From the NCBI GenBank assembly GCA_018677555.1, contig JAHHOT010000180.1, positions 1 through 32,500 of the forward strand: DNA of 32,500 nucleotides, read 5' to 3'. Below, piece by piece: positions 3,724 through 29,941 of this stretch. Below the pieces are notes generated by a model. It worked only from the letters and a program-made list of their open reading frames with translations, had not been told where the DNA came from and made no database searches. Each line of letters begins with the position of its first letter. Position 1 is the stretch's first letter. This stretch comes from Gammaproteobacteria bacterium. GTDB lineage: Bacteria > Pseudomonadota > Gammaproteobacteria > Steroidobacterales > Woeseiaceae. The translations under genes and the position numbers were made by a program.

Positions 3724-4317
3724 ATGCCGGGCACCGACAGCGCCAGATACCAGCAACAGCGACGGGAAGCGATCAAGTCGGCGGCGGCCGTTTTTGCTGA
3801 CAAGGGTTTTCATGGCGCCAGCACCAAAGATATTGCGGCGCACCTGGGTATCAAGCAAGGCAGCCTGTACTACTACTTCAAGTCAAAAGAAGAAGCCCTC
3901 GGTGAAGTCTGCCACTTTGGCATCCACGACTACGTCGAACGCATGAACAACATTGCCGCCAGCGAGCAGCCTTTCGAGGCAAAGCTGATGGCAACGGTAA
4001 CGTCGCATTTGTCGAGTTATCGTGAACGCAACGAGGCCCTGAAAGTTTATAACGACGAGCGCCTGTACCTGCCCGAGGAGAAGCGCAAGTCGCTCAAGCA
4101 AATGGGCAGCAGCTATCGTCAGCACCTGGAAGGAATATTCGAAGAGGGCGTACGCAGCGGTGCAATTCGCGAATCGGTCGACTGTCATTTCGCAGCGCAG
4201 GCCGTGATCGGTATTTGCAACGCCTGGGGCGACCTTATCGTGCGCGATCCGGATCTCGACGTGTTCGACGTGATCCAGAAATGTACAGAGCTTTTACTAC
4301 ATGGTTTTTCGAAATAG
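3724..4317 (+). CDS. TetR/AcrR family transcriptional regulator
   Basis: 197 aa; N-terminal [43 protein letters not shown]. Confidence 0.95.
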
Positions 4318-4336
4318 CAACAACAGGAATAAGGAA

Positions 4337-5008
4337 ATGGCTGAACAAAAAGCAACAAACGTTACCTGGCACGACGGAGAAATTTCCAGGGAAGATCGCT
4401 ACCAGATTCTGCGCCAGCGCGGCGTCACGATCTGGTTCACCGGTCTGTCAGGAAGTGGCAAGAGCACAATCGCGGTAGCGCTCGAGCAGGCGCTGTTCAA
4501 GATGGGCAAACTGTCGTACCGTCTCGACGGCGACAACGTTCGCATGGGCATCAACAAGAATCTTGGATTCTCGGGAGAGGATCGCAAGGAAAACATCCGA
4601 CGCATCGGCGAAGTAGCCAAGCTCTTTGTCGACGCCGGCACGATTTCACTGTCGAGCTTTATAAGCCCCTACAAGGAGGATCGCGACGAGGTTCGCGAAT
4701 TGCACGACAAGGCAGGATTGCCGTTCGTCGAGGTGTTCGTGGACTGTTCACTTGAGGTCGCAGAGCAGCGTGATCCCAAGGGGCTGTACAAGAAAGCACG
4801 CGCAGGCGAAATCAAGAATTTTACCGGCATCGACGATCCCTACGAGGCGCCGACGAGCCCGGAACTCCACTTGCATACCGACCAGATGACGATTGAAGAG
4901 GAAGTCACGGCGATTATCGACTACCTGCTCGCCGAGGGCTTCATCAGGTCTGAGCACTTCACTCGGGCAACCGACAGCGCGGACACCGTTTCCGCAGCCG
5001 CAGTCTAG
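4337..5008 (+). CDS. cysC: Adenylylsulfate (APS) kinase
   Basis: Walker [75 protein letters not shown] opens at 4301 but the ATG at 4337 has the better RBS (AATAAGGAA). Confidence 0.95.
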
Positions 5009-5020
5009 GAGACTACGACA

Positions 5021-6208
5021 ATGATCAAACCACACGGGGCGGATGCCCTTAATCCCCTATTGGTCTCGGATGCAGCAGAGCACCAGGCATTGACCGAGGA
5101 AGCGGAGTCGCTGCCGTCGATGCTTCTGAGCTCTGCAGCCGCGGCGAACGCCGTAATGCTGGGCGGCGGCTACTTCACACCGCTCGATGGCTACATGAAC
5201 CTCGACGACGCGCTGGCCGTGGCAAAAGACATGCACACGAGCAGCGGGCTGTTCTGGCCCGTCCCCGTTCTCAACCTGACCGCGGACATCGACGGTATCG
5301 AGAACGCAAAGCGTATCGCACTGCGGGATCCGAACGTCGAGGGACATCCTGTTATCGCAGTGATGACCGTCAGTGCCATCGAGAAAGCAAGTGACGAACA
5401 GCTGGACACGATCACAGAAAGCGTGTTCGGCACGCTGGACAGCGCGCATCCCGGTGTCAACGTTTTTCGGAATCTCGGCAACCACGTCGTGTCCGGGCCG
5501 ATCCAGGTACTGAACCTGAGCTACTTCGAGACGGATTTCCCCGGCACCTTCAAGACCGCAGTCGATATCCGCAATGAAATCAAGGCACTGGGTTGGAGCA
5601 AGGTTGTCGCCTTCCAGACGCGAAACCCGATGCACCTGGCACACGAAGAGCTGTGCAGAATGGCCATGGACCGGCTCGGCGCCGACGGCATCGTCGTCCA
5701 CATGCTTCTCGGCAAACTCAAGGCAGGTGATATTCCCGCTTCGGTTCGCGATGCCTGCATCCGCAAGATGGTCGACGTTTACTTCCCGCAGAACACCGTG
5801 ATGGTCAACGGTTACGGTTTCGACATGCTTTACGCGGGGCCGCGCGAAGCTGTGCTTCACGCACTGTTCCGCCAGAACATGGGAGCAACCCACCTGATCG
5901 TCGGTCGCGACCATGCAGGCGTTGGCGACTTCTACGGCCCCTTCGACGCGCAGACGATTTTCGACGAGCAGGTACCGGAGGGCGCACTCGACATCGAGAT
6001 CTTCAAAGCGGATCACACCGCCTATTCGAAGAAACTCAACAAGGTCGTCATGATGCGTGAAGTCGAAGACCACACACCCGAAGACTACGTGTTCCTGTCA
6101 GGAACCAAGGTCCGCGAAATGTTGGGCAACGGCATTGCACCGCCGCCCGAGTTCTCGCGGCCGGAGGTAGCGGAGATCCTGATGAATCATTACCGCTCTG
6201 TCGCCTGA
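5021..6208 (+). CDS. sat: Sulfate adenylyltransferase (ATP sulfurylase, Sat/Met3 type)
   Basis: 395 aa; QTRNPMHLAHEEL and GRDHAGVGDFYGPFDAQ motifs; follows cysC by 12 nt. Confidence 0.95.
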   Translation: MIKPHGADALNPLLVSDAAEHQALTEEAESLPSMLLSSAAAANAVMLGGGYFTPLDGYMNLDDALAVAKDMHTSSGLFWPVPVLNLTADIDGIENAKRIALRDPNVEGHPVIAVMTVSAIEKASDEQLDTITESVFGTLDSAHPGVNVFRNLGNHVVSGPIQVLNLSYFETDFPGTFKTAVDIRNEIKALGWSKVVAFQTRNPMHLAHEELCRMAMDRLGADGIVVHMLLGKLKAGDIPASVRDACIRKMVDVYFPQNTVMVNGYGFDMLYAGPREAVLHALFRQNMGATHLIVGRDHAGVGDFYGPFDAQTIFDEQVPEGALDIEIFKADHTAYSKKLNKVVMMREVEDHTPEDYVFLSGTKVREMLGNGIAPPPEFSRPEVAEILMNHYRSVA

Positions 6209-6897: not shown

Positions 6898-7290
6898 ATG
6901 TTGCGGATTTTGCTAGCTGTTTCGGCAATCGGCCTGCTGCTGTGCGGGCCCGCAAGTGTAGTTGCGCATCACTCCTTCGCCGCCGAGTTCCTGCCAGACG
7001 AAACCGGCACAATCTCCGGTGTCGTTACCCAGGTCTGGTTCAAGAATCCGCACGCACGTTATTACATCGAGGTCAGCGACGATGATGGACAGGTCGTTAC
7101 CTGGGACACGCGAGCCAACAGCCCGTCGCTCCTCGTTCGCAAAGGCTGGACCAAGGAATCGATCAAGGTGGGCGACCAGGTCACCGTACACGGCTACCTC
7201 GGCAGGGACGGTCGAAAACTGATGTCCATCATTACGGTCACGTTTCCCGATGGCACAGTGCTGCGCGACAAGCAGGAAGAACCGAACTAG
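6898..7290 (+). CDS. DUF6152-like secreted protein
   Basis: 130 aa; signal peptide then HHSFAAEF, GTISGVVTQVWFKNPHARYYIEV, LLVRKGWTKESIKVGDQVTVHGYLGRDG; RBS GGGGGGAG. Confidence 0.8.
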   Translation: MLRILLAVSAIGLLLCGPASVVAHHSFAAEFLPDETGTISGVVTQVWFKNPHARYYIEVSDDDGQVVTWDTRANSPSLLVRKGWTKESIKVGDQVTVHGYLGRDGRKLMSIITVTFPDGTVLRDKQEEPN

Positions 7291-7311
7291 TCAATCAGAG
7301 GTCCCGCAGTA

Positions 7312-8346
7312 GTGTTTCGACCGGCTCATCGATATTTGATTCTCTTGCTGGCAGTGATAACCACACCGTCACCCAGCGCAGAAACCGGATTTGCCGGCGA
7401 CTGGATGATTGAATTGCATTCTGCCGACGCGCCGATCACAGGGCTGCTGCAGCTGGAGAAATCGGCAGCGGGTTGGCAGGGCTACGTCGAGGGCGGACCG
7501 GTCGATGTGACGATAGCAGGCAAGGCCATCGAGGTGCGCGTCGATAGCCGGGATCTGTCAGGCTTCGTTTTTTATCGCGTGCTCCGCGGAACGCTCGACG
7601 ACGGTAAACTCGTTGGCCATTTCACGATCGAGCGAGAGCGGGCGTCGACCGAACGAGAAGGAACCTGGACCGGCGTACGGAAATCGCCGCAGCAACCCAT
7701 TGACGACCCGCAACCGGTCGACCTGAGCGGAATCTGGACGCCCGCACGGGGCGTCGACTTCCGCAAGTATTCAATGGACCTGACCCCGCAGGCTGAAGAA
7801 TGGCATGGCAATTACCTGATGCACTACGACCAGCCGAACGTGCGCTGTGCATCGGTCGGTATCGCCGCCATGGTCGCCTGGGGCGCATACCCGTTCGAGA
7901 TTCTCGAGACCCCGGGCAGGCTGACGTTTCTTTACGAAGTCGATAGCGAGGTACGGCGCATATACCTCGACGGCACGCCGCAGCCGGAATACTACCCGCC
8001 GTCCGACATGGGCTATTCGAATGCCTACTGGGACGGTAGTGAACTGGTCATCGAAACGGTAAACCTGGCCGCCAATGTGCGGGACTTTCGCGGCGAACCG
8101 ATCTCCGACGGTGCTTCCATGCTGGAACGATACTGGCTGGGCGACGACGGCAAGACGCTGAATGCCGTCATTGAACTGCACGACCCGGTGAATTACCGGC
8201 GACCGCCGATACGCCGACGCATGTGGACGCGGAATCCCGAAACCCGGATTTATCCTTACGAATGCGATCCGGAATCCTTCTATCGACAGATGTACGACGA
8301 AGGGCGGATGGACATGTATTTCGAACGCGCGGATCGACGAAACTGA
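7312..8346 (+). CDS. Secreted hypothetical protein of the 'DLSGIW ... G.P.P...PPSDMGYS...WDG..LVIET' type
   Basis: 344 aa with GTG start and signal peptide; recurring motifs DLSGIWTPARG, RRIYLDGTPQPEYYPPSDMGYSNAYWDGSELVIETVNL. Confidence 0.7.
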   Translation: MFRPAHRYLILLLAVITTPSPSAETGFAGDWMIELHSADAPITGLLQLEKSAAGWQGYVEGGPVDVTIAGKAIEVRVDSRDLSGFVFYRVLRGTLDDGKLVGHFTIERERASTEREGTWTGVRKSPQQPIDDPQPVDLSGIWTPARGVDFRKYSMDLTPQAEEWHGNYLMHYDQPNVRCASVGIAAMVAWGAYPFEILETPGRLTFLYEVDSEVRRIYLDGTPQPEYYPPSDMGYSNAYWDGSELVIETVNLAANVRDFRGEPISDGASMLERYWLGDDGKTLNAVIELHDPVNYRRPPIRRRMWTRNPETRIYPYECDPESFYRQMYDEGRMDMYFERADRRN

Positions 8347-9116
8347 TGCGACTCGCATTCGTTCCTGTCATGGGCGTATTTTTCGCGGCCACGGCGAACG
8401 CGCATCACTCGGTACTTCATTACGATGGAAAAACAGAAGTCAGGATCAGTGGCGTTATCAGCAAAGCACGCTACGGATTTCCGCACAGCAAGTACCAGAT
8501 CGAAGTCCGGAACGACGACGGCAGCAGCATATCGTGGACGCTGACAACCGAGGACCCGCGCGACGCACGACGCCTGGGTTTTGCCGAGGCCATCAAGGCA
8601 CTGCGGCCGGGCGATGAAATCGCCGTCATCGGCTGGCCCCACAAGTTCAACAATTACGAATTACGTGGTCACCAGTTACATTATCCGGACGGTCGGGTTG
8701 TGATGCTGCGCAGAGGAAACTACATCTGGCCGAAGGACATTCTCAGGCTCGACAAGCTGTATTACAGCCCGTCGGATATTCCGGCGAGCATTCGCGACAG
8801 CGACACGTCGCGCCCATTCGATGAGCAACTCGTCGAATGGATCGACGAAGGCGACCATGTAGCCCGCGCTGCATGGGAGTCGGCGCAGCAACGCCCGCGC
8901 CTTATCGGCATCCGGGATCAGGGTGAAGTGACGTTTTCCGGAATCGACGAACTACTGAGTTGCCATACGGAGCGGCCGGACTTCAGGGTAGTCGTCGATC
9001 TTGCCGACCTCGATGGCGCACAACGCGAGATCATCCAACCGAACAGCACGTACGTTTCCGAATACAACCGCGTGCTGTCGCGGTGGTGGGAACAGGAACA
9101 CGAGAGCTGCGACTAG
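8346..9116 (+). CDS. Second DUF6152-like secreted protein with a long C-terminal extension
   Basis: ATG at 8346 overlaps the previous stop; MRLAFVPVMGVFFAATANA|HHSVLHYDGKTEVRISGVISKARYGFPHSKYQIEV; the longer ORF call from 8223 lies inside the upstream gene. Confidence 0.75.
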   Translation: MRLAFVPVMGVFFAATANAHHSVLHYDGKTEVRISGVISKARYGFPHSKYQIEVRNDDGSSISWTLTTEDPRDARRLGFAEAIKALRPGDEIAVIGWPHKFNNYELRGHQLHYPDGRVVMLRRGNYIWPKDILRLDKLYYSPSDIPASIRDSDTSRPFDEQLVEWIDEGDHVARAAWESAQQRPRLIGIRDQGEVTFSGIDELLSCHTERPDFRVVVDLADLDGAQREIIQPNSTYVSEYNRVLSRWWEQEHESCD

Positions 9117-9118
9117 CT

Positions 9119-9562
9119 GTGGCATTTCTCGTTTGGCTCGAACAGACAGCACTTGCCACCTGGGTCGGCGAGTCTCTGTACGGATACCCGTTTCTGCTCA
9201 GCATGCATGTCACGGGTCTCGCGCTCATCGTCGGTATCAGCAGCGTCATCAACCTCAGCCTGCTCGGTGTTCTGCCCGTGACGGCTCGCGATGTACAAGG
9301 CTCGCTGCTGCGTCTCGCCTGGGCGGGATTCGCGATCAACGCACTTTCCGGCATCGCCCTGTTCACGTCGCAGGCAACGTATTTTGTGACCAGCGCAGCG
9401 TTTCTGAGCAAACTCCTGTGTATCATCTGCGGCATTATGACCGTTGCCATCATCCAAAGCAGATGTCGCAGCAATCGCAGCATCGGCCGCGTACTGCCCG
9501 CGTTCGGCCTTTTGTGCTGGCTTGCTGCGATTGCGGCGGGTCGCCTGATCGCCTACCTGTGA
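9119..9562 (+). CDS. Multi-TM membrane protein, DUF6644-like
   Basis: Hydrophobic; LLSMHVTGLALIVGISSVINLSLLGVLP resembles the ILHFVGLSLLLGAIVVVDLRMAG segment of the next gene; GTG start inferred. Confidence 0.6.
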   Translation: MAFLVWLEQTALATWVGESLYGYPFLLSMHVTGLALIVGISSVINLSLLGVLPVTARDVQGSLLRLAWAGFAINALSGIALFTSQATYFVTSAAFLSKLLCIICGIMTVAIIQSRCRSNRSIGRVLPAFGLLCWLAAIAAGRLIAYL

Positions 9563-9565
9563 CGA

Positions 9566-10060
9566 ATGACCGTGATTGAGTCTGTCGTAAACTGGATAGA
9601 AGGCGGCGTTATCAATAGCTGGGTGGTTGGCAGTGCCTGGGTCTGGCCGACGCTGGAAATTCTTCATTTCGTCGGACTGTCGTTGTTGCTCGGCGCGATT
9701 GTTGTCGTCGATCTGCGCATGGCGGGCCTCATTCGGTCGCTCGAACTCACCGCCGTGACACGCTTGCTGCCATTGGCGGGGCTGGGGTTCCTGATCAACG
9801 TCACAACCGGCGTGTTGTTCTTCTTCGGCGACCCGGCGCGCTATTCCGTCAACGTCGGTTTTCAGATCAAGATGTTACTGGTGGTGCTCGCAGGGGTGAA
9901 TGCACTCTGGTTCTTTATGAAGATCGAACCGCAGGTGCAGCACTGGACACCCGGCAGCGCACCACCGTTGACGGCGCGTCTCGTCGGCGTAACGTCGCTG
10001 GCCACGTGGTTCGGAGTCCTCCTGCTGGGGCGCCTGATCCCCTACATCGGAACGGGTTAG
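9566..10060 (+). CDS. Multi-TM membrane protein, DUF6644-like
   Basis: 164 aa; WPTLEILHFVGLSLLLGAIVVVDLRMAG, C-terminal GRLIPYIGTG; starts 4 nt after the previous gene. Confidence 0.65.
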   Translation: MTVIESVVNWIEGGVINSWVVGSAWVWPTLEILHFVGLSLLLGAIVVVDLRMAGLIRSLELTAVTRLLPLAGLGFLINVTTGVLFFFGDPARYSVNVGFQIKMLLVVLAGVNALWFFMKIEPQVQHWTPGSAPPLTARLVGVTSLATWFGVLLLGRLIPYIGTG

Positions 10061-10063
10061 GCG

Positions 10064-10771
10064 ATGCCTCATAACTTCCACTGGCAAGGCAAGCCGCTTG
10101 CCGCCGTGCTGCTGGCAATTTTCGCCGCACTTCTGGCCGTGACCGCCAGCGCTCATGGCGTCAGCGGCACCGATGCCGCCTTTCTCGAGAGGAGCAGCGG
10201 CATAAATTTGCCGGGCTTCACCTACCTGGGCGCGAAGCACATGGTCACCGGCTATGATCATCTGCTGTACCTGACCGGTGTCATATTTTTTCTGCGTCAC
10301 CTGCGCGACGTCGCTTTATATGTAACGCTTTTTGCCCTTGGCCACAGCATCACGCTGTTGACCGGCGTACTCGCCGGACTGCAGCTCAATGCGTACATCG
10401 TCGACGCGGTCATCGGCCTGTCCATCGTCTACAAAGCCTTCGAAAACCTGGGCGGTTTCCGCGCTTGTTTCGGCGTCCAGCCCAACCCCAAAGGCGCGGT
10501 ATTTCTGTTCGGCCTGGTGCACGGATTCGGCCTGGCAACGAAGTTGCAGGATCTCGCACTGTCCGACGAGGGGCTGGTGGCGAACATGATCGCATTCAAC
10601 GTTGGCGTGGAGATCGGGCAGTTACTGGCGCTCGTTTTTCTGCTGACTTTCTTCAACATCTGGCGCTCAACGCCGGGGTTTGCAAAACACGCCTACGGCT
10701 TTAACGTGCTGTTGATGTTCGCGGGCTTTGCCTTGTTCGGTTATCAGACCATGGGATTCTTTTATGAATAA
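10064..10771 (+). CDS. HupE/UreJ-like (nickel/cobalt permease family) membrane protein
   Basis: 235 aa; signal peptide ending ASA|HGVSG, KHMVTGYDHLLYL, LFALGHSITL, LVHGFGLA, AFNVGVEIGQL. Confidence 0.85.
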   Translation: MPHNFHWQGKPLAAVLLAIFAALLAVTASAHGVSGTDAAFLERSSGINLPGFTYLGAKHMVTGYDHLLYLTGVIFFLRHLRDVALYVTLFALGHSITLLTGVLAGLQLNAYIVDAVIGLSIVYKAFENLGGFRACFGVQPNPKGAVFLFGLVHGFGLATKLQDLALSDEGLVANMIAFNVGVEIGQLLALVFLLTFFNIWRSTPGFAKHAYGFNVLLMFAGFALFGYQTMGFFYE

Positions 10772-11390
10772 TGGTTCACATTCATCTGGAAGCATCTTGA
10801 AAGGTGTGCTGGCGTCATTTCTCGCGGCCGCATTGGTGACGGTTCTTTTCGTCCTGCCCGCGGAGTACGGCAAGGACCCGACCGGAATTGGCGATGTGCT
10901 GGGTCTCACGGGTATTGCCGCAGAGCGGCACAGCCCGACAATGGTAATGGAGGGAGCGTTCCCGGCCATCGTCGAGGACTTCGACGAGTACGAGCCACCG
11001 ATCATCGGGCTGCCGTTCAGCGCGACGCTCGACGGTGGCTTTGCGACGCAAACAGTCAACATCTCGTTGCAACCCGGCGAGCAGGTGGAGTACAAGGCAG
11101 TCATGGAGCGCGGCGACATGCTCGTCTACTCCTGGACCAGCAACGCCTCGGAAATTTATACGGATTTTCACGCCGATCCGGGACGCAAAGCCGACGGATA
11201 CCCGGCGGGATACTTCGTCCGTTACGTCGAATCGGAGTCAGGCGAGGGGCACGGCTCGATTGTCGCGCCTTTCACGGGGAACCACGGCTGGTACTGGCTC
11301 AACATCAGCGAGGAAGACGTCGACATCGAGTTGAGAGTCGCCGGTTACTTTGACACGATCAACGAACTCGGCCGCTCGTTTCAGTACTGA
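10764..11390 (+). CDS. Single-TM 'transmembrane anchor' type protein with periplasmic C-terminal domain
   Basis: ATG at 10764 overlaps hupE by 8 nt; SILKGVLASFLAAALVTVLFVLPAEYGKDPTGIGDVLGL, GNHGWYWLN. Confidence 0.7.
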   Translation: MNNGSHSSGSILKGVLASFLAAALVTVLFVLPAEYGKDPTGIGDVLGLTGIAAERHSPTMVMEGAFPAIVEDFDEYEPPIIGLPFSATLDGGFATQTVNISLQPGEQVEYKAVMERGDMLVYSWTSNASEIYTDFHADPGRKADGYPAGYFVRYVESESGEGHGSIVAPFTGNHGWYWLNISEEDVDIELRVAGYFDTINELGRSFQY

Positions 11391-11403: not shown

Positions 11404-11877
11404 TCAGGACTCGGTTGATTCGAGCGCGACGTACATGCGTCTGAGTTGCTCGTAGAGCTGGTCGAGACCGTCTTTGCCGAACGCTTCCTCTATCTGCGCA
11501 TAACAGGCCTCGGAATCCGGCGCGACCGCCTCGAACAGCCGGCGGCCGTCACGCGTCAACGAAACAATCGAGCGGCGCTGATCGGTTTCGACGCGGGTGC
11601 GTTTCACATAGCGCTTGGTTTCCAGGAACTGCAATATGCGCGTGAGGCTCGGGGCCAACAGCATACAACGCTCAGCCAGTTCACTGACCTCCAGTCCGTC
11701 CACCTCGGCGAGTCCGCGTATCACCCGCCACTGCTGCTCCGTCAAACCGTGACGCCGCAACATAGGCCGGAATCGACGCATTGCGGATTCACGCGCCTGC
11801 AACAACGCCATCGGCAGGGAGTGCGCGAAATCGCGCATCGGCAATCGCGCGTTGTTTTTCTGCCTGTCGTCTGCCAT
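11404..11877 (-). CDS. hpaR: MarR family regulator, HpaR-like
   Basis: SLPMALLQARESAMRRFRPMLRRHGLTEQQWRVIRGLAE; DQRRSIVSLTRDG wing. The ORF can start at 11910, but MADDRQ at 11877 follows the upstream stop. Confidence 0.85.
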   Translation of the reverse strand: MADDRQKNNARLPMRDFAHSLPMALLQARESAMRRFRPMLRRHGLTEQQWRVIRGLAEVDGLEVSELAERCMLLAPSLTRILQFLETKRYVKRTRVETDQRRSIVSLTRDGRRLFEAVAPDSEACYAQIEEAFGKDGLDQLYEQLRRMYVALESTES

Positions 11878-11882
11878 TTCGG

Positions 11883-12485
11883 TCAGGGCTGGTGTTTGCC
11901 AGCTTCCCAACCACCATTGGCGCCAATGGTCTCTCGCGCGACCTGTGCCGGTAATTCCTCGATTTCCGTTGCCATCGAATCGTTCCAGCGGTTCAGGAAA
12001 CCGAACAACGCGACCGAAGCGACGATTTCGACGACCTGGCCTTCATCGAAATGTTCGTAGGCGGCGGCAAAGTCGTCGGCGGTCGTCTGCGCGGGAGACA
12101 TGGCACCGTGGTAAGCAAGCCTGAGCGCTGCGCGCTCCGCCTCGCTGAACAGGTCGCTGGTCTCGAAACTCCAGACGTTTGCAATTTTTTCGGCTGATGC
12201 AGCATAGATCTTGCTCAGGTTTGCCATGTGTGCCTGGCAATAGCGGCAGCCCGCGACCTGGCTTGCGATCAGGCTGACCAGCATCTTCAGCTCTTCTGCA
12301 ACCGTGCCCTCGTACAGTACGACCTTGTTGAGTTCCATGAAAGCACGCACGATATTCGGCCGTCTGGCCATCGTTTGAATACTGTTGGGCGTGAAGCCAC
12401 GCGTCTCGCGGTAATGAATGAAGCGCTCCTGAATGTCTTCGGGCACCGCGTCGAACGGCAATGGTTGCATATGTGGCATCGGCAC
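11883..12485 (-). CDS. Carboxymuconolactone decarboxylase / AhpD-like family protein
   Basis: 200 aa; MLVSLIASQVAGCRYCQAHMANL (CxxC...H). Confidence 0.85.
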   Translation of the reverse strand: MPMPHMQPLPFDAVPEDIQERFIHYRETRGFTPNSIQTMARRPNIVRAFMELNKVVLYEGTVAEELKMLVSLIASQVAGCRYCQAHMANLSKIYAASAEKIANVWSFETSDLFSEAERAALRLAYHGAMSPAQTTADDFAAAYEHFDEGQVVEIVASVALFGFLNRWNDSMATEIEELPAQVARETIGANGGWEAGKHQP

Positions 12486-12500
12486 TCCTCGATGTGTGAG

Positions 12501-13334
12501 TCAGGCGGCTGCGTCCAGGTCAAACCTGGCGACCGTGCAGCCCACCGCGAAGATCGGCAGGTCGGCGGTATAGAATTGCAGTGTGCCTGGAACTCGCGCT
12601 GCTGCCGCGATCGCAATGAACGTCCGAATCTCGAAGCCGCCCTGACCCGCGTCGGCGTAGGTCTGCTCGTCGGTGTAGTCGAGCAACGCAGCCTTGTCGT
12701 TGCGCATCAATCGATCGAGAAAGTCGCGATCCCATTCCTCATTGATTTTTCCGGAATCCGGCGTTGCGGGCCAGTGGGAAATGCCGCCGGTACCGACGAT
12801 GGCTATGCGCTCCGGCACCGCGTCACAGGCACGGCGCAGCGCTTCGCCGAAAGCCCACGCACGTGGCAGCGGCGTCAGGGGCGGACCCTGGCAATTGATG
12901 TTTACGGGCACGACCGGCATGTCGAAGCGCGGCGTCAGGAAATTCAACGGCACGATGATCCCGTGATCGAACTTCCACTCCTCGGCATACGCAACGTCGA
13001 CGGTATTCATGATTTCGCGGGTCAGGCGCAGCGACAGGTCGGCATTGCCGGGAATTTTCCGGCGCTCGATTTGCAGCCATTCCGGGTCTTCGATAGGACC
13101 CTCGTAGTAGTCCGCCATGCCGACGCAATAGGCCGGCATATTGTTCATGAAGAAATTGGCGAAATGCTCCGCCGCAACGACAACGAGTGCTTCCGCCCCG
13201 GATGCCTCGATCTCCTGGCGCTGCACATCGAATGCCGCGTAGAACTCTTCTCGCAGCGCTTTGTCCTTGACCAGATTCGCGCGCCCGGTGATGCCCGGTG
13301 CGTGACTGCAAACACCCGCGTATACAAGGCTCAT
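12501..13334 (-). CDS. Extradiol ring-cleavage dioxygenase, LigB-type catalytic subunit
   Basis: Start MSLVYAGVCSHAPGITG at 13334; VVAAEHFANFF, FDHGIIVPLNFL, VGTGGISHWP, INEEWDRDFLD. Confidence 0.85.
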   Translation of the reverse strand: MSLVYAGVCSHAPGITGRANLVKDKALREEFYAAFDVQRQEIEASGAEALVVVAAEHFANFFMNNMPAYCVGMADYYEGPIEDPEWLQIERRKIPGNADLSLRLTREIMNTVDVAYAEEWKFDHGIIVPLNFLTPRFDMPVVPVNINCQGPPLTPLPRAWAFGEALRRACDAVPERIAIVGTGGISHWPATPDSGKINEEWDRDFLDRLMRNDKAALLDYTDEQTYADAGQGGFEIRTFIAIAAAARVPGTLQFYTADLPIFAVGCTVARFDLDAAA

Positions 13335-13666
13335 TGGCTGTTCTCTTCCACGGTGAAACTGTCGCCGCCACCCGTCATGGCATAAATGCCGGCGCGCACC
13401 GGCCCATAGCGCTCGATCCCCTTGCGCATCATGTCGAGATAGTCGAACCATTCGATGCCCAGGAAAGCCGCGTAATGCATCAGGATCTGGCCGTTCACAC
13501 CCAGCACGTACAGGAGTCCAATGTCGCCGTCGCGCAGCGCGCGCCGCTCCTCGTCATCCAGGTCGTAGCTGTCCAGCAAGGCGTCGAGATCCGCCCGGTA
13601 GGATTCCTGCGCAGCCGGGTCGCGATTGAGGACGTAAAGAACCTTCTGCAGGTTATACAGGCTCAT
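13331..13666 (-). CDS. LigA-type small subunit of the extradiol dioxygenase
   Basis: 111 aa; DIGLLYVLGVNGQILMHYAAFLGIEWFDYLDMMRKG; ATGA overlap with the LigB gene. Confidence 0.8.
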   Translation of the reverse strand: MSLYNLQKVLYVLNRDPAAQESYRADLDALLDSYDLDDEERRALRDGDIGLLYVLGVNGQILMHYAAFLGIEWFDYLDMMRKGIERYGPVRAGIYAMTGGGDSFTVEENSQ

Positions 13667-15186
13667 TACGCGCCCAACTTCGGTACCGGGTGGGTGCCCA
13701 TCGCGATGCAGACGTTTTTCGTCTCCATGTAGAACTCGAAACTGTAGTCACCTCCGTCCCGCCCGATACCGCTCGCTTTCATGCCGCCGAACGGAGCTGG
13801 CAGGTGGCGGTTATTCTCGGAGTTTACCCAGATCATCCCGGCATCGATGCCGGCAGCCAATCGATGGCCGCGGCCGATATCATTGGTCCATACATAGCCT
13901 GCAAGGCCGTACTCGATGTCGTTGGCGATGCGCAGCGCGTCCGCTTCATCGGAGAACGGGATTGCCGTTAGCACCGGTCCGAAAATCTCCTGCTGCGCGA
14001 TGCGCATGCTGTTGTCGGCGTCGACGAACAGGGTCGGTTCGACGAAGTTACCCTTGCCATCGAGCGGCGCCGGCTTGCCGCCAGCCGCGATCCGCGCACC
14101 GTCTTGCGGCGCCATCTCGAAGTAGCTGCAAACCTTTTCGAAATGACGCTGGTGAATCAGCGGCCCGATCTCGGTTGCGGGATCCAGCGGATGCCCGACT
14201 TTCAGCTTGCCGATACGCTCGACCAGGCGGCCGATGAATTCGTCCTGAATCGTCTCCTGTACCAGCAAGCGGCTGGACGAGGTACACCGCTCGCCATTCA
14301 GGCTATAAATCATGAACACCACGGCGTCCAGCGCCCGCTCCAGATCGGCATCGTCGAAAACAATGACCGGATTCTTGCCCCCCAGCTCGAAATGCACCCG
14401 TTTCAGCGTGGCGGCGCCCTGCCGCATAATATGGCTGCCGGTCGACGATTCGCCGACGAAAGCAACGGCCTTGATCGCGGGATGCTCGGTCAGCGCCTTG
14501 CCGGCATCCTCTCCCAGGCCCTGCACGCAATTCAGTACGCCCGCAGGAAGTCCCGCTTCGCTGGCGATTTCCGCCAGCATCATCGCGCTATAGGGCGACC
14601 ACTCAGCGGGTTTGTGAACCACCGTGCAGCCGGCTGCCAGCGCCGGCGCTATCTTCCATGTCGACAGCATGAACGGTGTATTCCATGGCGTAATCACACC
14701 GACCGGACCGATTGGCTGGCGGACGGAATAGTTGAGGTGTTGCTCGGCGGGCAGAGACTGGCCGTCACGCGCAGACGGCGCCATGTCGGCGAAGAAACGG
14801 AAGTTGGCGGCACCGCGGATCGCGGCCTTGCTCATGAAGCGATAGGCCTGGCCGGAGTCGAAACTTTCGACGACCGCAATTTCGTGGGCGTTGGCCTCGA
14901 TCGCGTCAGCCACTTTGTGCAGAATCTTCTTGCGCTCCTTGCCCGGTATCGATTGCCAGTGCGCGAACGCCTCGGCTGAGCTGCGGCACGCGGCATCGAT
15001 GTCCTCGGCATTCCCGGCACTGACCTGGCCGATCAGGCTGTTGTCGACAGGCGTGACGTTGTCGAACGTTTTTCCGGAGCGGCCGACAGCGTGCCGGCCA
15101 TCAATGAAATGGGGCAGCGGCGCGTCCCGGAAGCGTTGTAACTGCGTGGCTGCGAGCTCGAGGTTGCCTTCGGCGGTACTGGACAT
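13666..15186 (-). CDS. hpaE: Aldehyde dehydrogenase, 5-carboxymethyl-2-hydroxymuconate semialdehyde dehydrogenase-like
   Basis: ALDH motifs [48 protein letters not shown]; neighbouring hpaF. Likely start MSSTAEG at 15186. Confidence 0.85.
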
Positions 15187-15206
15187 TGACGTATCTCGAC
15201 GAGTTC

Positions 15207-15602
15207 TCAACGGGCTTCGCGCCGTGCCATGTAATCGCGAAGGTTGTTTTTCTTGAACGTGAGCACCGGATGGATTTCCTGAATCTCGAAGGAAATCGCG
15301 AGTGGCGAGCTTGCGCTGACGGGCTCGAGAAATTCGCACAACACACGAAACATGTGCTCTCCGGCTTCGCGTCGCAGCGCTTCGGGACGCCCGTGACCCA
15401 GTTTCCAGGTCAGGTGCACAAACTGGTTGTCCGGGTGTCCGTCCGCAATCCTGTAGTGCTCGCGGCGCGCGGCGCGGGTGCGCAATCCGCCGAGCGGGAA
15501 CGCGTCGATGCCGGCTGCGGTCCGGTGCAAGGTCTCAATCAGGTCGCTGATGCTGATGCGCGACTCCAGATTGGAGGAGTATTCGACGATCTGATGTGGC
15601 AT
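15207..15602 (-). CDS. hpaF: 5-carboxymethyl-2-hydroxymuconate delta-isomerase
   Basis: Start MPHQIVEYSSNLE (catalytic Pro after Met, CHMI family); C-terminal ISFEIQEIHPVLTFKKNNLRDYM. Confidence 0.85.
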   Translation of the reverse strand: MPHQIVEYSSNLESRISISDLIETLHRTAAGIDAFPLGGLRTRAARREHYRIADGHPDNQFVHLTWKLGHGRPEALRREAGEHMFRVLCEFLEPVSASSPLAISFEIQEIHPVLTFKKNNLRDYMARREAR

Positions 15603-15630
15603 GCGGAAGCGAGCAGCGCTCGTTGAATTC

Positions 15631-15646
15631 ACTTAACATGTTAAGT
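15631..15646. promoter_or_regulatory. Candidate HpaR/MarR operator, perfect 16-bp palindrome ACTTAACATGTTAAGT
   Basis: Exact dyad between divergent hpaF and the DapA-fold aldolase; core recurs at 18011. Confidence 0.65.
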
Positions 15647-15708
15647 ATACTCCGCCTCGTCCACAGGTCAAGCGCCGCTCTGCGGCGAATTTCGCGGGGA
15701 GGCATAAC

Positions 15709-16620
15709 ATGGCACAAGACGACCGCCTGAAGGGCTCGATTCCACCGCTGGTTACGCCGATCAGGGAGGGCGAGATCGACTACGACGCTTACGCCGGCCT
15801 GGTCGAATTCCAGATCGCCGAGGGCTCCCACGGCATCCTCGTGAACGGCACGACCTCGGAACCGTCCACGCTCACCGTGGACGAGCGCAATCGGCTCGTG
15901 GACGTCGCAATGGAGGCTGCCGGTGGACGCATTCCCGTCGTCGTTGCCAGCGGCTCGCAGTCGCTGGCTGAATCCGAGCAGCTGACCGGTCATGCAGTGA
16001 AATCGGGCGCGAGCGCGTTGCTCATCGTCACGCCCTACTACATTCGCCCCCCGCAGCGCGGCCTCGTCGAGTACTACCTGTCGCTCAGCCGCAGCCATGA
16101 CACGCCCTGGATGATTTACCACATCCCCGGTCGCACCGCGGTCAGCATGACGCTCGAGTCGATGAAGGAACTGCGCGAGAAATCGCCGAATTTCGTCGGC
16201 ATGAAGCACGCGGTCAACGATCTCGGCTTCGTCACCGAGTGTTTCTCCGCACTCGGCAACGATTTCAAGGTGTTTGTCGGACTGGAAGAGCTGTCGTTTC
16301 CGATGATGACGATCGGCGCCTGCGGGTTGATGAATGCCGTCGGCAACCTGCGACCGGGCATACTGGCCGACATGTGCCAGGCTGTGTGGGACAGCGATCT
16401 GCCAACCGGCCGCGAATTGCACCAGCGGCTGCTGGAGATCAACAAGGCCGTGTTCTTCGATACCAACCCGATCCCGATGAAGTACATGATGAAGCGTCTC
16501 GGCATCATGCCGAGTAACGAACACCGACTGCCGATGAGCCCCGCGACGCCGGAACTCGAACAGCGCCTGGACGGCGTATTGCGCCGCGCGGGCTTGCTGC
16601 AGGAGGACAATTCCGCATGA
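15709..16620 (+). CDS. DHDPS/DapA-fold aldolase, probably 2,4-dihydroxyhept-2-ene-1,7-dioate aldolase
   Basis: 303 aa; GSIPPLVTPIREGEIDYDAYAGLVEFQI, GTTSEPSTL, IYHIPGRTAVS, FVGMKHA (Schiff-base Lys); hpa cluster context. Confidence 0.8.
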   Translation: MAQDDRLKGSIPPLVTPIREGEIDYDAYAGLVEFQIAEGSHGILVNGTTSEPSTLTVDERNRLVDVAMEAAGGRIPVVVASGSQSLAESEQLTGHAVKSGASALLIVTPYYIRPPQRGLVEYYLSLSRSHDTPWMIYHIPGRTAVSMTLESMKELREKSPNFVGMKHAVNDLGFVTECFSALGNDFKVFVGLEELSFPMMTIGACGLMNAVGNLRPGILADMCQAVWDSDLPTGRELHQRLLEINKAVFFDTNPIPMKYMMKRLGIMPSNEHRLPMSPATPELEQRLDGVLRRAGLLQEDNSA

Positions 16621-17477
16621 GATTCGCGAGCTTTACACGCGCCGGTCGGGCGAGCTATGGCATCGTGCGCGCCGAAGAAGTCGTCGATCTCGGGGCGCGT
16701 GCCGACACTCCCGCGGACCTGCGCGACGCTATTCGACAGGACCGCCTTGCTGCACTGGGCGATCTTGCGGCGACCTTGCCGGCAGACTGTTCGATCAGTG
16801 ACATCAGCTACCTGCCGACGATACCCAACCCGGAAAAAATCATATGTATCGGCGTCAACTACAGCAATCGAAACGAGGAATACAGGGACGGCAGTGACGC
16901 GCCGAAGTACCCGAGCGTGTTCATGCGCAATCGAGACTCACTGGTCGGGCACGAACAGCCGATTATCGACCCCCCGGAATCGGATCAGCTCGACTACGAA
17001 GGCGAAATTGTGATTGTGGTCGGCAAGGAAGGACGGCGTATTCCGCAGGAGCGGGCGCACGAACACGTCGCCGGCCTTACAATCATGAACGAGGGATCGA
17101 TTCGCGATTACCTGCGGCATGCAAAGTTCAACGTCACGCAGGGCAAGAATTTCGAACACTCCGGCTCACTTGGGCCGTGGCTGGTGACGCCCGATGAACT
17201 CGATCCGATGGGTACGCTGCAGGTGTTGACCCGGGTCAACGGTGAGGAGCGGCAGAACGATATTACCGACAACCTGATGTTCCCGTTTCGCTACCTTCTG
17301 GGCTATCTGTCGACGTTTTACCGCCTGCGCCCCGGCGACATCATCGCAACCGGCACACCGAACGGCGCCGGCGCGCGCTTCGACCCGCCCAAATACCTGC
17401 GTGCGGGGGACGTGGTCGAGGTCGAGGTGCCGGGTATCGGGGTACTGCGTAACGCGGTGGAAACGGAAGCGGCCTAG
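16617..17477 (+). CDS. hpaG: Fumarylacetoacetate hydrolase family protein (HpaG-like isomerase/decarboxylase)
   Basis: 286 aa; ICIGVNYSNRNEEY, LDYEGEIVIVVGKEGRRI, GDIIATGTPNGAGA; ATGA overlap with the aldolase. Confidence 0.8.
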   Translation: MRFASFTRAGRASYGIVRAEEVVDLGARADTPADLRDAIRQDRLAALGDLAATLPADCSISDISYLPTIPNPEKIICIGVNYSNRNEEYRDGSDAPKYPSVFMRNRDSLVGHEQPIIDPPESDQLDYEGEIVIVVGKEGRRIPQERAHEHVAGLTIMNEGSIRDYLRHAKFNVTQGKNFEHSGSLGPWLVTPDELDPMGTLQVLTRVNGEERQNDITDNLMFPFRYLLGYLSTFYRLRPGDIIATGTPNGAGARFDPPKYLRAGDVVEVEVPGIGVLRNAVETEAA

Positions 17478-17947
17478 CGCGCCAGCGAGGCGTAGGCGCC
17501 GTTCGAAAAGACCAGTGGCTCGGCCTCCGATGCGCGAAAGCGTTCGACCTCGCCGATGATGATGTAGTGGTCGCCGCAATCATGAATCTGCCCGGTTCTG
17601 CACTCCAGGCAGGCCAGCGTGTCCGGGATCAGCGGAACACCGTACTCCGACATTTCATGCTCGACGCCGTCGAACAAGTTGGCCTCGCTCTTCGCGAACC
17701 GGTTGGACAGCGCCTGCTGGCCGGCGGCGAGGATGTTCACCGCGAACTGGCTGGCGTCCAGGTAAGCCTGTAACGAGCGCGACACCTTGGCGATATTCCA
17801 CAGGATCAGCGGTGGCTCGAGCGACACCGAGCTGAAGCTGTTCGCCGTGATGCCGCAGCGTTCGCCGTCCGCCGCGGTACAGGTCACGATGGTGACCCCG
17901 GTGGTAAATTTTCCGAGGCACTGGCGAAATTTCTTCATCTGATCCAT
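17474..17947 (-). CDS. hpaC: Flavin reductase family protein, 4-HPA 3-monooxygenase reductase component
   Basis: 157 aa; FRQCLGKFTTGVTIVTC...GITANSFSSVSLEPPLILWNI; close to hpaB. Confidence 0.85.
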   Translation of the reverse strand: MDQMKKFRQCLGKFTTGVTIVTCTAADGERCGITANSFSSVSLEPPLILWNIAKVSRSLQAYLDASQFAVNILAAGQQALSNRFAKSEANLFDGVEHEMSEYGVPLIPDTLACLECRTGQIHDCGDHYIIIGEVERFRASEAEPLVFSNGAYASLAR

Positions 17948-18010
17948 GGCGTCCGCTCACTTGCTGTCCGCAGTGCAGTGGCGTTTGCGCTTGACTGCGG
18001 GCAGAATTTA

Positions 18011-18039
18011 ATTAATATGTTAATCATTAATATCTTAAT
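18011..18039. promoter_or_regulatory. Tandem candidate MarR operators ATTAATATGTTAAT and ATTAATATCTTAAT, 15-bp register
   Basis: Two near-palindromes between divergent hpaC and marR2; TTAATATGTTAA matches TTAACATGTTAA at 15633 in 11 of 12 positions. Confidence 0.6.
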
Positions 18040-18053
18040 AAAAGCCTGATCGT

Positions 18054-18515
18054 ATGGCAATGCAAACCTTCAGCCGCTCGCTGCCGATGATGCTTTATCG
18101 CACGCTTGACGCGGTAATGCCGCGATTCCGTTCGATTTTTGGAGAATTCGGTTTGACGGAGCAACAATGGCGGGTGCTGCGCGTATTGTGGGAGGTCGAC
18201 GGCATCGGCTTCTCCGACCTCGCGGAAACTACGTGCATCCCGGCACCCAGCCTGGTTGGCGTGGTTGACCGGCTGGCGAAAAACGGCCTGGTCGAGCGGC
18301 GCCGCTCCGATGCCGACCGGCGCATGGTTTTCGTGCATGCGACCGAAACGGGCCAGCAGCTCGAGGAACGGGTGCGGCCCGAGGTCGTACGGGCATACGG
18401 CGAACTGCAGGCATCGATCGATCCCGCGGACTGGGAGCGTCTGATCTCCGGCATGGAAGCCATAATCGCGGCTTGCGAGCGCCATGACGAGCGGCGCAGG
18501 GCCATCAACGAATAG
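18054..18515 (+). CDS. Second MarR family regulator, HpaR-like
   Basis: 153 aa; SLPMMLYRTLDAVMPRFRSIFGEFGLTEQQWRVLRVLWEVDG, resembles the MarR at 11404..11877. Confidence 0.85.
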   Translation: MAMQTFSRSLPMMLYRTLDAVMPRFRSIFGEFGLTEQQWRVLRVLWEVDGIGFSDLAETTCIPAPSLVGVVDRLAKNGLVERRRSDADRRMVFVHATETGQQLEERVRPEVVRAYGELQASIDPADWERLISGMEAIIAACERHDERRRAINE

Positions 18516-18528
18516 CAGGTAGACAACT

Positions 18529-19998
18529 ATGAGTGCACAAGAAAAAGCGACCACCGGCAAAGGAATCCGTAATGGCGAGCAATACCTGGAAGGTTTGCGT
18601 GACGGCCGCGACGTCTGGATTCACGGCGAAAAGGTAAAAGACGTAACCCGCCATCCCGGGCTCAGTCGCGGCGCACAGACACTCGCGTCATTCATGGATC
18701 GCCAGTTCGACCCGGCGCTGCAGGACACGATCACCTACGAGGAAGACGGCAACCGCTATGCAACGTCTTTCATGATTCCGAAATCGAAAGACGACGTGGT
18801 CAAACGGGGCGCGGCTTTTTACGAATGGGCGACCTGGTCGAATGGCATGTTTGGCCGCACGCCGGATTACAAGAACGCCTCACTCATGGCGTTCGGCAGC
18901 GCCACAGATTTCCTGGCCGAGGGCAAACCCGAGTATGGCGAAAATATGAAAGCCTACTACGAGTATGTCCGCGATAACGACAAGGTGCTGACCCATACGC
19001 TGGTCAATCCGACCTTCAATCACGCGCAGGCGCAGGAAGGCAAATACAGCGACAAGGTTGCCCTGCAGGTGGTCAGGGAAACGGACGCAGGCCTGGTCGT
19101 GAGCGGCGCGCGTCTGCTGGCAACGCTTGGCCCACATGCCGACGAAATCGAAGTATTTCCGTCGACGCTGTTGAAAGCATCGGAAGAGAACCTGCCATTT
19201 GCCTTCGCTTTCGCAATCCCGATCGGTACGCCCGGCCTCCGACTGATCTGCCGCGACAGCTATGACCACGAGAAGTCGCATTTCGATGCACCGCTGTCCT
19301 CGCGCTTCGAGGAGATGGATGCGGTCGTAACGTTCGACAACGTTCTCGTACCGTGGGAGCGTGTTTTCATGTACCGCGACCCGCTGATGTGCAATCGTGC
19401 ATTTGCCGAGACGAATGCCGTAATTCACATGATGCATCAGGTCGCCTGCGGCAAACTCGCCAAGGCCGAATTCATCGTCGGACTTCTGTGTGCGATGGCG
19501 AAAGCAACCGGAAAAGACAAGGACATGAACATCAAGGGCCAGATTGCGGAGGCAATGTGGATCGCGGAAAGTGTCAGGGCGTTTCGCTACAGCGCCGAGC
19601 AGCAGGCTCACCCGGACCAGCGCGGCAACTACATACCGCTGCGGCGGCCTCTGGATACGTCGCGCAATCTGTTCCCCAAGATGTACCCGCGGCTGGTCGA
19701 AATGGTGCAGCTGCTCGGCTCCAGTTCGTTAATGGCAACGCCCAGTGAGGCCGACCTGACAAACGACATCGCACATGATGTAGGTCAATACTTCCAGACG
19801 GTTAACCTCGACAGCCGCGAGCGCATCGCACTGTTCCGCCTTGCGCACGATGTCGCCGTGTCAGGGTTCGGCAACCGCCAGGCGCTTTACGAACGCTTCT
19901 TCTTCGGCCCGCAAAACGTCATGGCCTCGATCTACTTCGATCTGTACAACAAGGATGACATGATGGACCGGGTAACCGAGCTGCTCAACCGGGAATGA
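18529..19998 (+). CDS. hpaB: 4-hydroxyphenylacetate 3-monooxygenase oxygenase component
   Basis: 489 aa; GEQYLEGLRDGRDVWIHGEKVKDVTRHPGL, FDNVLVPWERVFMYRD, C-terminal GNRQALYERFFFG. Confidence 0.9.
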   Translation: MSAQEKATTGKGIRNGEQYLEGLRDGRDVWIHGEKVKDVTRHPGLSRGAQTLASFMDRQFDPALQDTITYEEDGNRYATSFMIPKSKDDVVKRGAAFYEWATWSNGMFGRTPDYKNASLMAFGSATDFLAEGKPEYGENMKAYYEYVRDNDKVLTHTLVNPTFNHAQAQEGKYSDKVALQVVRETDAGLVVSGARLLATLGPHADEIEVFPSTLLKASEENLPFAFAFAIPIGTPGLRLICRDSYDHEKSHFDAPLSSRFEEMDAVVTFDNVLVPWERVFMYRDPLMCNRAFAETNAVIHMMHQVACGKLAKAEFIVGLLCAMAKATGKDKDMNIKGQIAEAMWIAESVRAFRYSAEQQAHPDQRGNYIPLRRPLDTSRNLFPKMYPRLVEMVQLLGSSSLMATPSEADLTNDIAHDVGQYFQTVNLDSRERIALFRLAHDVAVSGFGNRQALYERFFFGPQNVMASIYFDLYNKDDMMDRVTELLNRE

Positions 19999-28021: not shown

Positions 28022-28171
28022 ACCTCTCTTTGACGTTATTTGTCCGAATTCCGGTCGGGGTTTCGAAGCGGCTATCGCAGCAACGACGGCTGGCAGGCAA
28101 TATGCTGTAATCAGAGGAGATTACTGCATGCAGGCGACCGGTTTTCCGCCGGCACAACGTCAAACCTAGTG

Positions 28172-28801
28172 ATGGCAAAGGGACGCAAAGCAGTCGTCTA
28201 CCTGGATGACAAGCGCCTGGCCGCTCGGGTTCGTAGCGGCGATGAAGAGGCGTTTCGCCAGTTTTTCGACGACAACTACGACCGCCTCTATCGTTTTGCG
28301 CTTACACGGCTCAAAAACGACATAGACGCGGCGGAGGACATCGTGCAGCTCAGTTTTTCAAAAGCGCTGGCGAAACTCCATACCTACAAGGCGGAGTCCC
28401 AGCTGCATACCTGGCTCTGTGCGATCTGTCGTAATGATATTGGCGACTGGTATCGCAAGCAGGGTCGATACGAGGAGCGGATCGTGCTGGTCGAAGATCA
28501 ACCGGCTATTCAAGCGGCAATTGACTCTTTTCGCGCACCGGCAATTGACGATCCCGTACTCAGTTTTCAGCGCACCGAAGCCGCCAGGCTGATCCAGGTA
28601 GCACTCGATCGCCTGCCGCCGAAATACGGCAACGCACTCGAATGGAAATACGTAGAGGGCTATTCATCAAGGGAAATCGCGGAGCGACTGAACATCGGCG
28701 TGGAAGCCGCACAGTCACTGCTGGCACGCGCGAAGCGCGCATTTGCCGACGTTTACGGGGCGCTCGCAAGCGCCAGCAATGAATCCGCAAGTCGAGGCTG
28801 A
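28172..28801 (+). CDS. ECF-type RNA polymerase sigma factor
   Basis: FFDDNYDRLYRFALTRLKNDIDAAEDIVQLSFSKAL (region 2) and LPPKYGNALEWKYVEGYSSREIAERLNIGVEAAQSLLARAKRAF (region 4). ORF opens at 28040; start MAKGRK at 28172 more likely. Confidence 0.9.
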   Translation: MAKGRKAVVYLDDKRLAARVRSGDEEAFRQFFDDNYDRLYRFALTRLKNDIDAAEDIVQLSFSKALAKLHTYKAESQLHTWLCAICRNDIGDWYRKQGRYEERIVLVEDQPAIQAAIDSFRAPAIDDPVLSFQRTEAARLIQVALDRLPPKYGNALEWKYVEGYSSREIAERLNIGVEAAQSLLARAKRAFADVYGALASASNESASRG

Positions 28802-28805
28802 AGGA

Positions 28806-29807
28806 ATGTCGAACAAAGATATTGACGACAAACACGAGGATATGCTGAGCGAACTGTTCGAACACGCATCGCCTCGCCCGCAACCATCCAGCGACGCGCG
28901 TGCACGTACGTTTGCCGCCCTCCATGGCGAATGGCAGGCGCTATCGGCCCGCCGTCGCAACAGGCAGCGGATCATGCAATGGAGCGTCGCGGCGACGGTC
29001 ATGATTGCTGCAGTGCTCGGTTTTCGCAGCATGGATAGCGGCGCGCCAACGACCACAATTCCGGTGGCGCAGATCAATCGAATCTCCGGCGATGAGGTCT
29101 TTATCAACGATCGGCGGATCGATAGCGCTGCGCAAGCCGCTGCGACGATTCGCGTCCTGCCCGGCGATACGCTGCGGGCAGGTCCCGACTCGCTGGTGGC
29201 GCTCGGCTGGTCCGGCGGTGGATCGCTGCGAGTGGCGCCGAACACGACCATCCGGTTTCAGTCCAGCGAGGCAATTCGCCTGCGCGCCGGCAGCCTGTAC
29301 TTCGATTCGCGGCCGTTTGGCCAGGCGGCCAGGCCGGATCTGACATTCACTGTTGACACGCGATTTGGCCGCATCAGCCATATTGGCACGCAATTCATGC
29401 TGCGGCAGGACGCCACGCAGCTGTCTGTGAGCGTGCGCGAGGGCGAGGTGCAACTCGCGGGTCCGAATGTCGACGTGGCGGTACGCAGCGGCGATGAAAA
29501 AATCCTGCATGCAAACGGCGACTTCGACCAGCGCGCCATCGATGCGGACGATCCACGCTGGCGCTGGGCAAGCGACATTGCTCCCGAGGTCGAATTCAGC
29601 CGCCTGAAAATCGATGACATCCTGCAATGGGCCGGGCGGGAAACGGGGAGGACGGTCATTTACAGGACCAGCGCCGTGCGCGCGGTCGCAGAAAGAGAGT
29701 CTGCTTTCGGTCTGGACGGGCAATCACCGGAGCATGCGCTCCAGCTCATTCCGGGGATGACCGGTTTAAGTGCCACTACCGGCAACGGCAGGATCGTCGT
29801 CGAATAA
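28806..29807 (+). CDS. FecR-like anti-sigma/signal transducer with STN-like C-terminus
   Basis: One TM (IMQWSVAATVMIAAVLGF), FecR motifs DTRFGRISHIGTQFMLRQD...VREGEVQL, C-terminal VEFSRLKIDDILQWAGRETGRTVIY. Start uncertain (28779 or 28806). Confidence 0.85.
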   Translation: MSNKDIDDKHEDMLSELFEHASPRPQPSSDARARTFAALHGEWQALSARRRNRQRIMQWSVAATVMIAAVLGFRSMDSGAPTTTIPVAQINRISGDEVFINDRRIDSAAQAAATIRVLPGDTLRAGPDSLVALGWSGGGSLRVAPNTTIRFQSSEAIRLRAGSLYFDSRPFGQAARPDLTFTVDTRFGRISHIGTQFMLRQDATQLSVSVREGEVQLAGPNVDVAVRSGDEKILHANGDFDQRAIDADDPRWRWASDIAPEVEFSRLKIDDILQWAGRETGRTVIYRTSAVRAVAERESAFGLDGQSPEHALQLIPGMTGLSATTGNGRIVVE

Positions 29808-29941
29808 GCGGCGTAAAATGTGGGGGCGTATCAAAGATATCGGATCTTTTTCGGCGCATACTTGGCCGGGCTTCCGCATTCGAGGTGCGCTAACGTTACT
29901 GCGCGGAGTCGCGGCCTGTTGCTGGGCGCCGGGGAGTTGAG

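Follow-up and report, generated by a model that had tools for sequence, protein, structure and literature searches.

The window analysed here, the first 32,500 nucleotides of contig JAHHOT010000180.1 (assembly GCA_018677555.1), comes from a Woeseiaceae-type gammaproteobacterium, described as a marine sediment bacterium, whose closest named relatives in sequence belong to Woeseia/Woeseiaceae. Comparative analysis of an operon of seven genes in this window (g1-g7, 6898-11390, plus strand) revealed that its HupE/UreJ-type permease gene (g6) and the following gene (g7) form a near-obligate pair, that a tandem pair of small membrane protein genes (g4-g5) is a conditional partner of HupE, and that in Woeseiaceae the block belongs to a ring-cleavage gene cluster with LigB and FAH, not to hydrogenase or urease genes. 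The seven-gene block looks like a composite of three modules, DUF6152+DLSGIW (g1-g3), g4-g5 and HupE+g7. In the explanation that we favour, at a likelihood a little short of even, this composite envelope operon has HupE-g7 as its metal core, g4-g5 as a conditional and DUF6152/DLSGIW as a general component, and serves or protects the ring-cleavage pathway.

The seven open reading frames are taken to be real genes and not chance reading frames because each has homologues in other genomes. An earlier interpretation made from the letters of this DNA (hereafter the sequence-only reading) had described seven close-packed genes on one strand, and this held, the junctions from g1 to g7 being +21, -1, +2, +3, +3 and -8 nt. 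A scan of the operon gave no convincing internal promoter, with fewer sites than in shuffled sequences, and a number of terminator-like sites within chance. Pfam returned no match for g2, g4 or g7, and an NCBIfam search of the operon proteins gave nothing useful, g2 again having no match.

HupE and its membrane-anchored partner

The product of g6 (10064-10771, plus strand) matched HupE_UreJ_2 (PF13795) with 177.8 bits against a curated Pfam cut-off of 24.5 and has about 53-65% identity to HupE proteins of nickel, cobalt and zinc (Ni/Co/Zn) resistance loci, a close relationship that makes a metal role likely. Its signal peptide is predicted to be cleaved at ASA/HG (the slash marking the site), and an N-terminus of the A/H[GAN][VI] type was found in 96 of 104 HupE homologues, while its motif KHMVTGYDH is of the form HMxTGxDH present in 101 of the 104. 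As the sequence-only reading had stated for the window, hydrogenase and urease genes are missing, and this extends to the whole assembly (82% complete), in which no NiFe hydrogenase was found and the lone match to a urease model covered 57 residues (E=2e-4) in a frame with an internal stop.

Characterised HupE proteins have a role in Ni or Co uptake (reviewed in PMC7689651), and HupE and UreJ are described as single-component permeases (PMC5557971). His-rich CutF-like proteins have been reported to adjoin HupE/UreJ (PMC9973294); in two plasmid loci, a small open reading frame of about 120 aa lies 5' of HupE (L068:8720-9076 and L176:8472-8837) and possibly encodes such a protein.

Regarding g7 (10764-11390, plus strand), loci were collected as the best 80 of 577 matches to a g7 profile with one genome per species, mainly from Proteobacteria, with some Acidobacteria and one Nitrospirae genome. 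No more than 300 bp separate HupE from g7 in 74 of these 80 loci, and 78 of the loci contain both genes. The two genes occur paired both on the same strand and on opposite strands, so the pairing outlasts rearrangement, and the HupE orthologues of Woeseiaceae mostly have g7 alongside on either strand. Matches were also present in plasmid records (377 for g7, including many from Klebsiella and Enterobacter, and 497 for HupE), annotated plasmids listing a 'HupE/UreJ family protein' followed by a 'transmembrane anchor protein' or a hypothetical protein, and in hospital bacteria, metal-resistance plasmids of Klebsiella, Enterobacter and E. coli carry the pair beside Ni/Co/Zn efflux genes. The sequence-only reading had named g7, the closest partner of HupE, merely an 'anchor'. 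A literature search yielded no text on a 'transmembrane anchor protein' with HupE or nickel and none on DUF6152 or DUF6644, absence there not being proof of absence.

The AlphaFold model of g7 (54 homologues, pLDDT 89) has a helix at residues 8-35 and a GOLD-like beta-sandwich of nine strands at residues 93-206; the invariant alignment columns are E109, K111, W124, H136, H174, W176 and W178. Foldseek searches with this model returned the GOLD domain of human TMED1 among the best matches (TM-score 0.81 of the target, 2.1 Å over 107 columns), other GOLD-type matches among the best being p24gamma2 and Sec14-like proteins. Neither the Pfam profiles, that of GOLD included, nor PDB sequences matched g7, and its alignment profile found nothing among PDB sequences; the GOLD-type fold is thus a structural prediction. 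GOLD domains are adaptors in eukaryotes, and by analogy g7 may be an adaptor or gate for HupE.

In loci elsewhere, the HupE-g7 pair is adjoined by RcnA and a metal-sensing repressor, by a metal-sensing repressor and an MFS transporter, or by RND pumps of the CzcCBA/CusA type, and in one context ncrABC lies about 7 kb away. Genes of the Czc/RcnA/RcnR type were detected within 10 kb in 31 of the 78 HupE-g7 loci, and g4/g5 or DUF6152/DLSGIW within 7 kb in 15. The common position beside efflux pumps and metal-sensing repressors favours a reading in which HupE-g7 is a detoxification accessory that sequesters or moves excess Ni/Co, as on the plasmids, and here guards a cell taking up metal-chelating aromatics, as does the induction by excess nickel of a HupE/UreJ-like gene, clustered with NreB and RND genes, which was the most strongly nickel-induced gene of Sphingobium sp. 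ba1 (PMC5557971). The uptake role of characterised HupE proteins argues against it, as does the local gene content, since an efflux pump and a metal-sensing repressor are absent from the seven genes and from the scanned flank at 11.4-20 kb, and neither is found alongside the loci of the DUF type; resistance is on balance an unlikely function for the pair in this operon, with a real share of the probability.

The tandem membrane proteins and the secreted module

The genes g4 (9119-9562, plus strand, GTG start) and g5 (9566-10060, plus strand) encode small membrane proteins that are homologous to each other and arranged in tandem. Their description in the sequence-only reading as two DUF6644-like proteins stood as regards a homologous pair, but g5 fell below the cut-offs of both DUF6644 (PF20349; 18.6 of 27 bits, 0.002) and DUF2214 (PF09980; 26.1 of 34.1 bits, 9e-6) and g4 matched neither, so that 'DUF6644-like' is a loose, similarity-based label. 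Invariant positions of g5 are H34, G43, G82, F99, K102, W148 and G155 (alignment A5), and the alignment profiles of g4 and g5 found nothing among PDB sequences.

Those Woeseiaceae that have g4-g5 mostly have one pair per genome. In all 20 Woeseiaceae relatives with both on one contig, the pair is located upstream of HupE on the same strand, at 0.27-4.75 kb, a tight linkage in this family that agrees with the partnership suggested in the sequence-only reading; two further genomes have the pair and HupE on different contigs and two lack a matching HupE. Outside Woeseiaceae, g4-g5 were detected near HupE-g7 in five loci (L079, L084, L091, L123 and L148). Chance proximity is unlikely because most such genomes hold only 1-3 pairs, and on the HupE tree the g4-g5 context requires six changes, at least three of them forced by well supported branches. 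A cytochrome b561 gene was detected by Pfam in L041 and L091, and proteins that cluster with it are encoded in seven Woeseiaceae loci as well as in L079. The Spongiibacteraceae locus L091 has, downstream of the order g5-g5-b561-HupE-g7, genes for a DUF4198 protein and for a small Cys-containing protein that is secreted (L091:3437-5301).

The first three genes encode a small secreted DUF6152 protein (g1, 6898-7290, plus strand), a secreted DLSGIW protein (g2, 7312-8346, plus strand, GTG start) and a DUF6152 protein extended at its C-terminus by about 150 aa (g3, 8346-9116, plus strand), homologues of which occur in L040 and L049. Both g1 (83.1 bits) and g3 (55.6 bits) exceed the curated cut-off of DUF6152 (PF19649; 27 bits), so that these assignments of the sequence-only reading, like that of g6 to HupE, are confirmed by Pfam. 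The AlphaFold model of g1 (pLDDT 81) gave OB-fold matches in the PDB, among whose sequences the DUF6152 alignment profile found nothing. The mature protein is predicted to start with His-His (SVVA/HHSF); among 62 DUF6152 homologues, HH was found in 59, an AxA-type cleavage site directly before it in 52 and a conserved NPH in 52; a metal site in these proteins is hypothetical.

Twenty other DUF6152 regions, picked by score from ten relatives, contained HupE in no case and a DLSGIW relative near DUF6152 in 18; 21 proteins in the collected loci have an N-terminal DUF6152 fused to a DLSGIW domain. Genomes having DUF6152 carry 1 to 75 copies, and the neighbours of DUF6152-DLSGIW include a pyrroloquinoline quinone (PQQ) dehydrogenase, TonB receptors, a sulfatase, an FAD oxidase, a thiamine pyrophosphate (TPP) enzyme and transporters. 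Because of its many copies, its varied neighbours and its occurrence mostly without HupE, DUF6152/DLSGIW is regarded as a general secreted module. Counter-cases are the genome of L148, with two DUF6152 genes of which one is near HupE, and that of L079, with four, all near HupE. Expansion to 30-75 copies was observed in six genomes of relatives and other marine bacteria, and DUF6152 near HupE in genomes with that many copies was rejected as evidence, chance proximity being expected there.

These observations bear on the proposal of the sequence-only reading that the seven proteins form one integrated system for metal acquisition, in which the DUF proteins would be dedicated partners. The compact operon with its overlaps favours it, as does the presence of the three modules together in L079 and L148 and, with genes between them, in L042. 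Against this stand the DUF6152/DLSGIW genes that mostly occur without HupE and the HupE-g7 pairs of which most lack DUF6152, and such a system is very improbable: a metal role for the operon remains likely, while DUF6152 as a dedicated HupE partner did not survive the comparison of neighbourhoods.

The ring-cleavage neighbourhood and the proposed function

Downstream of the operon, and unmentioned in the sequence-only reading, is a cluster of aromatic catabolism genes with Pfam matches to MarR, CMD, LigB, LigA, aldehyde dehydrogenase (ALDH), CHMI, DHDPS and FAH (11407-17474), which with flavin reductase and HpaB extends over 11407-19995. We infer from this gene set a meta-cleavage route like that of homoprotocatechuate/4-hydroxyphenylacetate. 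The same families recur, in rearranged order, beside g4-g5-HupE in L043, L078 and other relatives; of the 18 Woeseiaceae loci that contain g4-g5, 16 have LigB, and LigB and FAH are also present in L079 (Cellvibrionales). Extra families in relatives comprise MFS, IclR, Nramp-like, TPP enzyme and sulfatase. In six Woeseiaceae loci (L038, L039, L041, L050, L051 and L056) an Nramp-like transporter and a TPP enzyme run beside HupE-g7, often with aldehyde dehydrogenase and sulfatase. A TonB receptor gene adjoins HupE in four loci (L036, L044, L054 and L079), and the receptor was dropped as a fixed part of the operon because receptors of this family are also found in places without HupE nearby.

The strong linkage to LigB, FAH and ALDH genes in relatives would also fit an operon acting in the envelope on an aromatic substrate or on the redox chemistry of that substrate, with no special part for metal and HupE co-inherited, and DUF6152-DLSGIW beside enzymes as diverse as PQQ dehydrogenase and sulfatase, and beside TonB receptors, points the same way. 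HupE, however, retains the conserved permease motifs and its partner g7, which elsewhere is part of metal loci, and we regard a purely catabolic accessory as rather improbable.

Computation shows the gene content, the HupE-g7 pairing, the contexts that recur and the predicted folds; regarding the metal, the direction of its transport, what each partner does and how the dioxygenase is connected, we infer the following scheme for the favoured composite operon. Its core would be a two-gene divalent-metal unit of the HupE permease and g7, the latter probably holding or gating HupE and consisting of a single membrane helix with a GOLD-like domain in the periplasm. The substrate would be a divalent metal (Ni/Co/Fe/Mn class) that reaches the periplasm, a TonB receptor lying beside HupE in four relatives; ligands there, among which the His-His start of mature DUF6152 is a possible candidate, would bind it before HupE with g7 moves it across the inner membrane. 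The g4-g5 proteins, with cytochrome b561 in some relatives, may add a membrane or redox function, and the unit would serve or protect the ring-cleavage pathway, LigB-type dioxygenases being a metal-dependent enzyme family.

Several points weigh against this explanation. The HupE/UreJ signature in the first transmembrane helix is HPxxGxDH (PMC7689651), and g6 has M in place of P, with H-x5-D-H retained; the seven-gene block contains no metal-sensing regulator; and the link between operon and LigB is one of neighbourhood only. The efflux and DUF contexts occur together in none of the 78 HupE-g7 loci (Fisher p=2e-4, uncorrected for relatedness), and since they never overlap, the pair may work differently in each. 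In addition, the set of 80 loci is not random, its sampling favours sequences like those of the window and some contigs are cut.

It is conceivable, and to us unlikely, that HupE with its GOLD-domain anchor represents an undescribed class of two-component bacterial metal permease, of which the version with g4-g5, DUF6152 and DLSGIW would be a specialised form handling, from the envelope, the metal demand of the ring-cleavage pathway or chelation by it. A near-obligate membrane-anchored partner would change how this branch of HupE is assayed and annotated, and a connection between a metal permease and ring-cleavage catabolism would, in these marine sediment bacteria, be open to direct testing.

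Elsewhere in the window, reading of the translations identified genes for adenylylsulfate kinase and sulfate adenylyltransferase at 4301-6208, upstream of the operon, and, at 28040-32281, genes for an ECF-type sigma factor, a FecR-like protein and a TonB-type receptor that carries a signalling domain at its N-terminus, a set that resembles the Fec-type regulatory set.

Comparison with known systems

The g6 protein resembles the HupE proteins of Rhizobium and Synechocystis in its Pfam match, the H-x5-D-H residues and a predicted cleavable N-terminus, but differs from them in the M for P of HPxxGxDH, in its near-strict pairing with g7 and in that no hydrogenase, urease or B12 gene was found alongside. 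With the plasmid Ni/Co/Zn loci (IncC plasmids, Klebsiella ncr plasmids and the Sphingobium RND cluster) the operon shares two homologous proteins in equal order with short gaps or overlap; there, HupE-g7 is accompanied by RcnA, NcrABC or Czc and metal-sensing repressors, whereas here it is accompanied by DUF6152, DLSGIW, DUF6644-like and catabolic genes. The genes g1 and g2 are similar in adjacency and sequence to the DUF6152+DLSGIW secreted module of other loci, which is often fused and, unlike here, normally unlinked to HupE. The predicted structure of g7, one membrane helix and a GOLD-like beta-sandwich, is that of the p24/TMED GOLD-domain membrane proteins, from which g7 differs in having no sequence match to them, in its N-terminal helix, and in being bacterial and predicted to be periplasmic.

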